DNA of 64,000 bases from Quadrisphaera sp. DSM 44207 (lineage in GTDB: Bacteria > Actinomycetota > Actinomycetes > Actinomycetales > Quadrisphaeraceae): contig NZ_FNKA01000001.1 of NCBI RefSeq assembly GCF_900101335.1, forward strand, positions 372,001 to 436,000, in the 5' to 3' direction. A program made the position numbers and the translations under genes. This document shows positions 8,063 to 10,611 of this stretch, piece by piece. Positions within the stretch are counted from its first letter, which is position 1; each line of letters starts with the position of its first letter. Under the pieces are notes generated by a model. The model was not told where the DNA came from. It searched no databases and was given only the letters and a program-made list of their open reading frames with translations.

Positions 8063-8138
8063 GTGGGTGTAGCTCAGCTGGTAGAGCACCTGGTTGTGGT
8101 CCAGGATGTCGCGGGTTCAAGTCCCGTCACTCACCCCA
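8063..8138 (+). tRNA. tRNA-His (GTG)
   Basis: Complete cloverleaf. The acceptor GTGGGTG pairs with CACTCAC through one G-U pair. The D arm is AGCTCAGCTGGTAGAGC. The anticodon stem CCTGG/CCAGG encloses anticodon GTG. The T arm is GCGGGTTCAAGTCCCGT, and CCA is encoded at 8136-8138. The base at 8062 is G and the discriminator is C, giving the extra G(-1):C73 pair characteristic of tRNA-His. Confidence 0.95.
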
Positions 8139-8534
8139 CGCAGGTGGCCCTCCGACCAGCGGTGGCGCGGGAGAGTGGTCGGGTGGCGAACTGGCCATCG
8201 GCGGCTCTCGTCGACGAGCCACGCACGGGCCACCGCAGCGCGCAGGAAGGCACCTGGGGCGTGCTCGGTGGGGCTCGGTCCGTCCGGCCCATCCTCCGAT
8301 GGCTGCAGGGTCCACGGTCTTCCACCGCCACGGGCCAGACACCCTGAGCTCCCAGGTCATCCACGACTGGATCAACGCCGGTACAGCGACCCAGCGACGG
8401 CCCCAGGTCCTCAGCCCCGATGGCCGCCGCTGCCTGATAACACAGCCGCCTCTGCGCGTCCTCCAAGACCGGGCGCGGACCACCGCCGTCGTCGAGCGAC
8501 TGCTGACTGCTGGCTCCGCGCGGCTGACGCGAGC
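8139..8534. other. low-coding-quality stretch after tRNA-His
   Basis: About 400 bp between tRNA-His and the ATPase, with visibly lower GC than the flanks and no recognisable gene apart from a weak 79-codon frame at its right end. No copy of the tRNA 3' end was found at the far side of the adjacent low-GC patch, so the stretch cannot be called an integrated element with attachment sites. Confidence 0.4.
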
Positions 8535-8538
8535 CTAA
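8299..8538 (+). CDS. hypothetical protein, weak
   Basis: A 79-codon frame of unknown meaning that overlaps the end of the opposite-strand ATPase by 4 nt. No ribosome site or known domain is obvious. The middle (SQVIHDWINAGTATQRRPQV) looks protein-like but is not recognised. It could be a remnant of the same imported segment as the ATPase, or spurious. Confidence 0.25.
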   Translation: MAAGSTVFHRHGPDTLSSQVIHDWINAGTATQRRPQVLSPDGRRCLITQPPLRVLQDRARTTAVVERLLTAGSARLTRA

Positions 8539-9746
8539 TCCGGTCCTCGGCGCGGGCGCGGAGTGTGCAGCTCGAGTTCGAAGTGACGCCGCATGTAGTC
8601 GTCGAACTGCGGGACGGTGAACGCGGCATAGCCGAGACGCGGACTGTAGACGAGACCTCGCCTGATCAGTGCATCTCGGGTCTGCCCGACCGGAGCTGAA
8701 GACTTCAGGCCGAGAACTGCGGCGATGTCTCCGCTGGAGTGCTCACCTGGGCCGAGTTGAGCCATGGCGCGGAGGTAGCGGCGCTGTGCGTCGGGCAGCC
8801 TGTCTGTGCGGAAGGTGAAGAAGCCTCGATCGAGCCAGTCCCTCACGAGAGGGCCGACTCGGATCGCGTCCTCCAGGGTGATCGGAGACGCCTCGGACGT
8901 GCGCCAGAGGTGGTCACCGAACACCTGCAGGAAGAACGGGTGACCGTCCGTGAACCGCACTGCCTCGTCAAGCGCGGAGCTGAGCATCTCGACTCCCTCA
9001 GCCCTTGCCGGCTCGGCTAGAGCCGCCATGGCATCGGCGCTGACCAGCCGCTCCACGGTCCTGGTCTCGAACATGCGCTCGGAGTACGAGGCAGCTTCTG
9101 CTAACACTCCTCGCGTCTGAGGCAGTCCTGCGGCGACCATGGTGAGCGGCAGGGTCCGTTGGGCGACCTTGTGCAGTGCCGACACCACGGCGCCGAGCGC
9201 CTCCGAAGCGGCGAACTGCAGTTCGTCGAACATGAAGGCCACTCCACGCCTGTGGTCCCGTGCGGCTTCGCCCAAGGCGACGAAGAGGTCCGTGACGTCC
9301 CGCACGGGGTCACCGCTAGCCGCCTGCTGCTCATCAGGGGCCGCCAGTCCGATGGTGAGGCCGCCGATCGACTAGGTAGCCTCCATGCCGCCCAGGATCC
9401 GCGAGACCTTCTTGGCGGCCGCGCTCCATCGAGAGGGCGGAGCGATCTCGAGAAGAGCCTCACGAACCAGCCTGGACACGGTCTCGATCACGTTGGACCC
9501 GGCCGTGAGTTCGTACTCGACGACGACCCACTGTCGCGTCAGGGCAGCGCGGGCGAACTCGTTGAGGAGCACCGTCTTGCCCACACCGCGTAGGCCGACG
9601 ATGAGGGTGCACTGAGCCCCTCGGCCGTTCTCGAGCCGCTGGAGACGCGCTTGGAAATCCGACAGCTCCCTTGCGCGGCCGATGAGGAAGGCCGGTGGCT
9701 GCCCAGCCCCGGGCGTGTAGGGGTTCAGCACCGCGTCAAGAGGCAC
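8535..9746 (-). pseudogene. AAA/STAND-like ATPase with in-frame amber stop
   Basis: A 404-codon frame that would encode a P-loop ATPase of the type found beside accessory and defence genes. Walker A is VGLRGVGKTVLLNEFARAA near residue 50, and Walker B is VAFMFDELQFAASEALGA near 165. A winged-helix-like C-terminus (GDIAAVLGLKSSAPVGQTRDAL) resembles archaeal-type ATPases. Codon 125 (9372-9374) is TAG; upstream and downstream halves are in the same frame and both read as normal protein, so one substitution explains the break. Nearby sequence is AT-richer than the genome, which suggests transfer. Possibilities are a decayed gene, a sequencing error or readthrough. An inverted repeat sits at its promoter. 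Confidence 0.7.
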
Positions 9747-9762
9747 GCTACTTCTTTGCGCT

Positions 9763-9803
9763 CTTTACAGGACTTTGCGTACAGTACGCAAAGTCCTGTA
9801 AAG
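9763..9803. repeat. perfect inverted repeat, 19-bp arms, CAG spacer
   Basis: The arm starting CTTTACAGGACTTTGCGTA at 9763 is matched exactly by its reverse complement at 9785-9803, with CAG between. It lies 16 nt upstream of the ATPase GTG (minus strand) and next to the point where aldehyde dehydrogenase homology begins. A further CTTTGCG copy occurs about 10 nt to the left. It is best read as an operator or a recombination site. It is AT-rich compared with the surroundings. Confidence 0.85.
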
Positions 9804-9859
9804 ATCGCAAGAGGACCTGGCTGTGATGAGCACCGGCGTCCGATCCGAGGACCTGCTGC

Positions 9860-10198
9860 GTGACGGGCCTGCGCCAGGACGACGAGATCGCCCGCGAGGA
9901 GGTCTTCGGCCCCGTCATCACGGTGCAGCGCGTCGAGGACGAGGCGCAGGCGGTGCGCTGGGCCGACGACAGCCAGTACGGCCTCGCCTCGAGCGCGTGG
10001 ACGCGCGACCACGGGCGGGTGATGCGCATGGCGAAGGCCCTGGACTTCGGATGCGTTTGGATCAACACGCGCATCCCGCTCGTGGCGGAGGTGCCGCACG
10101 GCGGCTTCGGCCGCTCCGGGTGCGGCAAGGACCTGTCCGCGTACGGCTTCGAGGACTACACCCGCACCGAGCACGTCATGAGCAGCATCACCGCGTAG
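9860..10198 (+). pseudogene. aldehyde dehydrogenase, C-terminal stump
   Basis: Encodes only the last 112 residues of a betaine/aminobutyraldehyde dehydrogenase-like enzyme (typical proteins are near 480-500 residues). It begins TGLRQDDEIAREEVFGPVIT and contains YGLASSAWTRDHGRVMRMA, FGCVWINTRIPL and the C-terminal GRSGCGKDLSAYGFEDYT. The NAD-binding domain and catalytic Cys/Glu region are absent, and upstream sequence shows no homology in any frame. The break coincides with the end of the low-GC ATPase/inverted-repeat segment, so insertion or deletion there probably removed the 5' part. Codon use is normal for this genome. Confidence 0.8.
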
Positions 10199-10202
10199 CG
10201 GC

Positions 10203-10307
10203 TCACAGGGCGAGGAGCACCAGCAGGAGGATCGCCGTCCCGACCAGGGAGATGAGCAGCGAGCCCAGGCAGCCGCTGCGGTTGCTGAAGAAGAGGAACA
10301 CGCGCAC
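10203..10307 (-). CDS. 34-residue membrane microprotein
   Basis: A short gene: GTG at 10307 preceded by GGGGAAG at 6 nt, reading VRVFLFFSNRSGCLGSLL and then ISLVGTAILLLVLLAL to a TGA. It is one membrane helix preceded by an aromatic/basic start with a Ser-Asn-Arg-Ser-Gly-Cys turn. Similar tiny proteins with this FFSNR-GC start occur in actinobacteria without assigned function (recollection, not a search). The good ribosome site and clean hydrophobic pattern support reality. GTG 10301 is an alternative start. The stop lies 4 nt from the end of the aldehyde dehydrogenase stump, convergent with it. Confidence 0.6.
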   Translation of the reverse strand: MRVFLFFSNRSGCLGSLLISLVGTAILLLVLLAL

Positions 10308-10437
10308 GAACTTCCCCGCGGCGGCGCTTCCACACCCGCCCCGGACGGGTCAGCCGCACCTCAAGCGCCCGATCCCGGGGTCGATCCTCCCTCCAGCGCG
10401 CCGCACCGGGCGGCGCGGCCCTGGAGGAGGCACCGGG

Positions 10438-10611
10438 ATGATCTCGCCGACGCACCCGCACCCGGAGGACGACGCGGTGATGGGGCTGCTGGCCGAGCGC
10501 GTGCCGCTCTCGCTCCTGTGCGACCTCGGCACCCGAGGCGGCCCGGACTCGGCGGGCATCCTGGCCGCCGAGGGCCGGCCCGAGCGGCCGTGGTGGGTGC
10601 AGGCGCGGTAG
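10438..10611 (+). CDS. conserved-looking small protein, 57 residues
   Basis: Starts at ATG 10438 after a strong GGAGGAGG ribosome site. The product has an acidic/His-rich beginning (HPHPEDDAV), a central MGLLAERVPLSLLCDL segment and ends RPERPWWVQAR. The pattern recalls small actinobacterial proteins with a LL-ERVPLSLL-DL core, but no function is known. There is no membrane helix or signal peptide. Downstream lies a GC-rich tandem repeat rather than a gene. Confidence 0.55.
   Translation: MISPTHPHPEDDAVMGLLAERVPLSLLCDLGTRGGPDSAGILAAEGRPERPWWVQAR

Follow-up and report, generated by a model that had tools for sequence, protein, structure and literature searches.

The window analysed here is a stretch of 64,000 nucleotides from the genome of Quadrisphaera sp. 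DSM 44207, in which a tRNA-His gene is followed by a small ORF, an ATPase gene read on the opposite strand, a palindrome just upstream of the ATPase start (9 nt from its arms and 15 nt from its core), the tail of an aldehyde dehydrogenase (ALDH) gene and a backbone ORF (Table 1).

Table 1. Features of the tRNA-His locus, with positions counted from the first base of the window
Feature	Position	Strand	Remark
tRNA-His(GTG)	8063..8138	+	Left boundary of insert; anticodon arm unlike that of all 12 family relatives
Insert	8139..10350	.	Missing from 11/12 family relatives; right edge approximate, placed by eye
ORF, 79 codons	8299-8538	+	Adjoins tRNA-His
STAND/ORC-like AAA+ winged-helix ATPase, 403 codons	8535..9746	-	GTG start at 9746
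In-frame TAG, codon 125	9372..9374	-	Just before a variable, low-confidence loop
Palindromic site, 27-nt arms (9756-9782 / 9784-9810)	9756..9810	.	Arms 96% complementary
Perfect 43-nt core of palindrome	9762-9804	.	Inside palindromic site
Half-site CTTTAC	9763..9768	+	In palindrome
Half-site CTTTGC	9773..9778	+	10 bp from half-site at 9763..9768
Inverted half-site CTTTGC	9788..9793	-	In palindrome
Inverted half-site CTTTAC	9798..9803	-	In palindrome
C-terminal 112 codons, aminobutyraldehyde-dehydrogenase-like	9860..10198	+	Inside insert
57-aa backbone ORF	10438..10611	+	Relatives directly after tRNA-His in 11/12 family genomes

The tRNA-His region was compared with that of the 12 other genomes of the family. 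A small conserved ORF containing the peptide VPLSLL lies 180-343 bases past tRNA-His in 11 of these 12 relatives and 2,362 bases past it in the window, so that an insert of some 2.2 kb at tRNA-His, running from 8139 to about 10350, is the best reading; it would hold both the ATPase gene and the ALDH tail, and the backbone is taken up again ahead of the small ORF at 10438. This bears out the proposal of an earlier note, made on the same DNA, that something had inserted beside this tRNA gene, and the twelfth relative (G002, of the sister genus) agrees with it: there tRNA-His is followed by the start of an actinophage-type tyrosine integrase gene (L147 2348-2953), which matches 513 actinophage records, with the annotation integrase among the matches listed, though its Pfam integrase matches fall below the cut-offs and the contig ends within the gene. 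GC drops right after the tRNA, as had also been claimed, to 0.725 at 8139-8534 and 0.667 in the ATPase gene against 0.77 for the window, and is 0.487 across the 76 bases preceding the ATPase gene. That this segment stops exactly at the ALDH homology was only half right: the homology does begin in mid-protein at 9860 (the best NCBIfam model, of 475 positions, is matched from 366 on), but about 50 bp matching neither gene (9811-9859) lie between it and the promoter side of the ATPase gene, which faces it, and the low GC continues through the ALDH fragment (0.708) and through 10199-10350 (0.704). Two marks of a tRNA-integrated genomic island, insertion at the tRNA 3' end and deviating GC, are present here; the other two, an integrase and a flanking direct repeat of the tRNA end, are not, as the tRNA 3' end did not turn up a second time within the window (in agreement with the earlier note) and the insert ORFs tested showed no integrase or recombinase family, the integrase being seen only in G002. 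Because both of these are missing, the type of element can only be inferred. The anticodon stem of tRNA-His reads CCTGG/CCAGG in the window and CCGCG/CGCGG in all 12 family relatives, and the tRNA may have been partly replaced by incoming DNA. Searches of Pfam, PHROGs, plasmids and phages returned nothing for the ORF adjoining the tRNA. On the reverse strand (10202-10310), past the ALDH fragment and ahead of the backbone ORF, inspection by eye suggested that a small membrane protein, some 35 residues long, may be encoded.

A resident ALDH gene cut by the insertion, which the earlier note supposed, is contradicted by the relatives: no ALDH follows tRNA-His in the 11 that are readable there, the fragment itself lies inside the insert, and the sister genus has its ALDH relatives (63-64%) elsewhere, as long open frames on contigs C38 and C138 of G001 and C514 of G002. 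A search of the window's own genome with the fragment at E 1e-20 returned only the fragment. Pfam Aldedh has 10 matches in this genome, and the missing part of the protein was not found among them; the two other partial matches (profile 15-233 and 13-297, the ALDH fragment starting at profile 355) do not span the missing stretch, and the first of them gave no match to the G001 protein at 1e-10. A short ORF starts at 9823 facing away from the ATPase gene and at about 9857 passes into the ALDH fragment, though not in its frame (9823-9859); this ORF could represent the 5' part of a further broken gene, and our impression is that it resembles a sigma factor.

The P-loop ATPase reported earlier in the low-GC segment was recovered with Pfam (PF13191, AAA_16, E 1.7e-16), but its frame consists of two ORFs in one frame split by a TAG, with 278 codons open past the stop. 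The Pfam matches were to P-loop families, with TniB (E 0.034) and MarR_2 (E 0.043) below threshold, and the only match to the ATPase in its own genome was the ATPase itself. The protein has residues typical of STAND motifs in LIGRARELSDF (21-31), which we take to be the hhGRExE-type motif before Walker A, and in GHPFF (268-272), presumably the GxP motif after sensor 1; G23 and R24 are invariant and P270 is present in at least 90% of 84 ATPase family sequences. The long C-terminal sensor or superstructure repeats of STAND proteins are absent, the ATPase ending after its winged helix at 403 residues. A structure model built from the 84 sequences, with the TAG read as Q, reached pLDDT 94.2 and pTM 0.91 (a single-sequence model gave pLDDT 36). 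Its best fold matches were the archaeal proteins PAB2304 (Z 23.1) and SSO1545 (Z 22.3) and archaeal ORC2 (Z 20.6), followed by Cdc6/Orc1 bound to origin DNA (Z 18.6) and by plant and animal STAND proteins (about 15-19). By sequence, the window protein found no solved structure at 0.1, and the family profile gave weak matches to ORC4, mS29/DAP3 and other AAA+ proteins (best 0.0016).

The inverted repeat in front of this gene was described earlier as perfect, which holds for its 43-nt core and not for the 27-nt arms; the repeat is more than chance would produce. The window copy has no clean TAnnnT box. No other match to a 20-base arm, allowing up to 3 mismatches, was found in the 3.2-Mb assembly; a shorter arm pattern gave 2 extra one-mismatch matches in this genome, and the reversed control gave the same number.

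The earlier note suggested searching for ATPase and repeat as recurring pairs at other sites, and they do recur together, with repeats that differ in sequence. Several homologues have long palindromes, not the same in sequence, at an equal distance from the start, among them L010 (28-nt perfect arms), L017, L007 and L020, with three half-sites per arm about 10 bp apart in L010 and L007 (by eye), and many relatives have half-sites that form no perfect palindrome. For statistics, 238 upstream regions were reduced to 101 representatives whose proteins are less than 70% identical. Exact 5-mer direct repeats at a spacing of 10 were present in 45/101 regions at -85..0, compared to 11/101 in the next 85 bases upstream and a mean of 7.6 in shuffled sequences; spacings 9, 19 and 20 were likewise raised, and a first set of 48 representatives (from class genomes and plasmid loci) gave 23 versus 6 for spacing 10. 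The dyad symmetry score was 8.80 near the gene, 6.54 in the upstream control and about 5.9 in shuffles (Wilcoxon P = 1.9e-9 versus control), and when aligned on the dyad the regions showed TTTA blocks on one side, near -27, -17 and -8, and TAAA blocks on the other, near +7, +17 and +27. Symmetry above the control's 95th percentile was found in 42/101 representatives (5/101 controls), a 9-11-bp repeat in 67/101 (30/101 controls) and one or other signal in 77/101 (34/101 controls), leaving 24 representatives with neither (for example L030, L188 and L234). At least one member with a signal was found in 11 of the 12 named phyla of this set, which is weak evidence for phyla represented by one row. 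A cruder test with fixed arms on 25 representatives was weak (z>3 in 7/25; P = 0.06 and 0.095 versus two upstream controls and 0.002 versus shuffles).

A TAnnnT motif, resembling a -10 box, was matched 44 times with its start at -14..-12, compared to 3 in the control; elsewhere in the same AT-rich stretch it occurs about 3 times per position, so roughly 9 would be expected at -14..-12. This suggests a leaderless promoter overlapping the proximal half-site. Co-evolution of half-site and winged helix found no support in 65 of the 101 representatives, where the divergence of the one did not follow that of the other (Mantel r 0.035, P = 0.30; partial r -0.06, P = 0.86). Upstream of the ATPase gene in two loci of one genus (L013 and L015) there are several copies of a GTGAAGGTGACGCC-like repeat.

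The nearest relative of the window ATPase, L128 (from G382), is 71% identical over 87 residues. Over a 41-bp core it keeps 23/24 half-site bases and 8/17 spacer bases, and 15/20 symmetric pairs remain self-complementary compared to 20/20 in the window, indicating that in this pair of sequences pairing is not what is conserved and favouring a protein site over a hairpin. In six further genomes (G008, G011, G012, G007, G010 and G406, the last being the Dehalococcoidia genome of L225) one-arm patterns with up to 1 or up to 3 mismatches matched nothing but both arms of the site at the gene itself. In none of the 7 genomes tested did such patterns, which could miss sites that are weaker or spaced in another way, reveal a further site above control.

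ATPase homologues occur in 11/13 genomes of the family, the window's own included, and in 122/394 genomes of the class (E <= 1e-25). A search of genome contigs with the single protein found no close relatives, and a profile search did find relatives, confirming at least 306; the titles of the best 80 of these name at least 19 phyla, Pseudomonadota, Acidobacteriota and Peregrinibacteriota among them. Plasmids have relatives as well, in 115 of 72,556 records, under names like 'ATP-binding protein' or 'AAA family ATPase', and a Chlamydiota plasmid has one too. Relatives, some of which are distant, were also found on 25 viral contigs and in 1 of 50,697 phage records, the latter a clone of 5.9 kb that is unverified. 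There is no conserved neighbour gene, the commonest neighbour family being found at 6/80 loci. Phyla other than Actinomycetota are mixed in a tree of 99 proteins, with 17 changes for Pseudomonadota of which at least 7 are forced by well-supported branches; the tree was made by a quick method, and mixing of this kind does not prove transfer. G005 and G006, two genomes from a single genus, have in common a 90% block made up of site and gene (1,263 bp) with 1.5-kb flanks lacking detectable homology, and the flanks of G005 sit close together in G006 and G004 without the block. This does not establish a minimal transposon or precise mobile unit, since the G005 insert is about 3.6 kb when compared with G004 and has other genes aboard. 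Other same-genus pairs (for example L009-L011, L006-L007 and L062-L063) have flanks in common, and therefore inheritance is often vertical over short times. Adjacency to tRNA genes was discarded as a family trait, a tRNA gene being within 2 kb of available sequence at only 5/101 loci; two ATPase relatives, L199 (tRNA-Ala) and L262 (tRNA-Leu), are 26 bp from one. Among open-licence PMC papers, judged by titles and the starts of abstracts, we recognised none on this pairing of gene and site, and our searches found no function for the homologues.

Taken together, the best explanation is a two-part unit, consisting of a dyad of 10-bp-phased half-sites and an ATPase of about 400 amino acids, AAA+ and STAND/ORC-like, with a C-terminal winged helix. 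We propose, at a probability of about 0.62 and from sequence, that the palindrome is the operator/promoter site of the adjoining ATPase gene and that the two form a widespread solitary unit with putative autoregulation; most likely this ATPase has spread horizontally and regulates itself from a private operator that it is predicted to bind. Several ATPase subunits would bind next to one another, each half-site being occupied by one winged helix, the ATP state would set their assembly there, and the assembled ATPase would repress or gate its own promoter, so that the gene would recognise only itself. Weighing against this reading are the 24 representatives with neither signal and the 34 control stretches that have one by chance, the weak fixed-arm result, the failure of half-site divergence to follow that of the winged helix, the AT-richness that raises TAnnnT throughout the upstream stretch, and the missing clean box in the window copy.

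Whether the copy in the window still works is a separate matter, and there is not far from an even chance that it has lost its role and is decaying as a passenger, with the site and the gene left over from an old integrative element, which is compatible with the operator reading. The TAG at codon 125 may mark a recent pseudogene or else be a sequence error, the window ATPase sits on a long tree branch (1.08 compared to a median of 0.3), and the second tRNA end (in the window) and an integrase family (among the insert ORFs tested) are missing, all as would be expected of such a remnant. Against this, the frame stays open past the stop, the site has a perfectly palindromic core, and differences from L128 over 82 codons fall mainly at third positions (19/12/42 at codon positions 1/2/3), which points to selection through most of the time of divergence.

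A further reading would be a selfish single-gene unit present across many bacterial phyla, a bacterial ORC/STAND-like ATPase whose sole genomic target would be its own gene, with a phased array of up to 6 subunits on the dyad forming an origin-like or self-marking site as well as a promoter, and with spread via plasmids, phages and tRNA-linked inserts; we regard this fuller version as unlikely.

We give a somewhat poorer chance to the interpretation of the earlier note, a small mobile or defence unit in which the repeat would be one end of an ATPase-bearing element that inserted beside tRNA-His and cut a resident ALDH gene. The insert at tRNA-His is confirmed, relatives of the ATPase do occur on plasmids and viral contigs, and an integrase is found at the same tRNA in G002; but the ALDH fragment is within the insert, with no ALDH there in the 11 readable relatives, no recombinase family was found among the insert ORFs tested, and the repeat lies at the promoter and recurs there in relatives, and a promoter site that accompanies the gene from genome to genome accounts for it better than a transposon end does. 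With PADLOC, the window protein matched no family at 1e-5 (best match SngB, 5.4e-5), and among family members 'mad8' was matched by 11/84 and Cas3b by 1/84; a defence role of the ATPase is neither shown nor excluded. A transposon or insertion sequence was rejected, as Pfam gave no transposase match above threshold and the dyad is one promoter site rather than repeats at both ends.

Equally improbable, in our estimation, is a bacterial ORC/Cdc6-like initiator with its own origin, in which the half-sites, flanking an AT-rich centre, would act in the manner of origin recognition boxes, with local replication started or controlled by the ATPase. The model does match archaeal Orc1/Cdc6 folds, the 7 genomes tested have one site each, and in archaea, according to the available excerpt of PMC3936714, an initiator gene lies beside repeats around an AT-rich region with pair-specific recognition. 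However, the dyad overlaps a promoter-like box, the window protein scores 12.9 bits with TIGR02928 (Orc1/Cdc6) where the cut-off is 181.3, and many members are on contigs of at least a megabase, probably chromosomes, which would need no second origin. Least probable of all is that the repeat acts as a nucleic-acid structure (an RNA hairpin, terminator or cruciform) rather than as a protein site, for although its RNA fold is very stable (-40.1 kcal/mol, z -7.7, with 0/200 shuffles equally stable), L128 keeps the half-sites and loses spacer pairing, the half-sites of many relatives lack a perfect palindrome, and a leaderless promoter, which the -10-like box suggests, would leave the dyad outside the gene's own transcript.

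If the proposed operator reading is right, the phased dyad that precedes many copies, private to each, offers a handle on what binds there, on the effect of ATP state and on why a regulator keeps one target; if the site works instead like an archaeal origin box, bacteria would carry a second, mobile kind of initiator-like ATPase.

Among known proteins, the archaeal AAA+ ATPases SSO1545 (2fna) and PAB2304 (2qen) have nearly the whole length of the fold in common with the window ATPase (Z 22-23 over 322-325 residues) at 15-17% identity, and we know of no cognate upstream site for either. The best viral family match, PHROG 6841 (E 7e-14), covers only residues 6-283 and is given no function. The STAND regulators MalT and IniR are, as far as the available excerpts describe them, ATP-switched multimers and so resemble the mode of action proposed here, and the ATPase domain of IniR is predicted to resemble SSO1545 (excerpt of PMC5760070), but both are multi-domain proteins (IniR has 818 amino acids) with sensor domains and separate target operons, whereas the window ATPase ends after the winged helix. 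Archaeal Orc1/Cdc6 proteins likewise combine AAA+ and winged-helix domains (Z 18.6-20.6 to 2qby and 1w5t). Their ori-cdc6 pairs place the gene beside repeats around an AT-rich centre, the protein serving only its own neighbouring site (excerpt of PMC3936714), which is a precedent for a protein devoted to one adjoining site; the window site differs in having short 10-bp-phased half-sites over a promoter-like box. Orc1-2 of Saccharolobus islandicus is described in the available part of PMC9738581 as an ORC-type AAA+ winged-helix transcription regulator switched by ATP binding and hydrolysis, and is thus a precedent for an ORC-type ATPase in transcription; it acts there as a global DNA-damage regulator, whereas the window ATPase family has one site per genome in the 7 tested.
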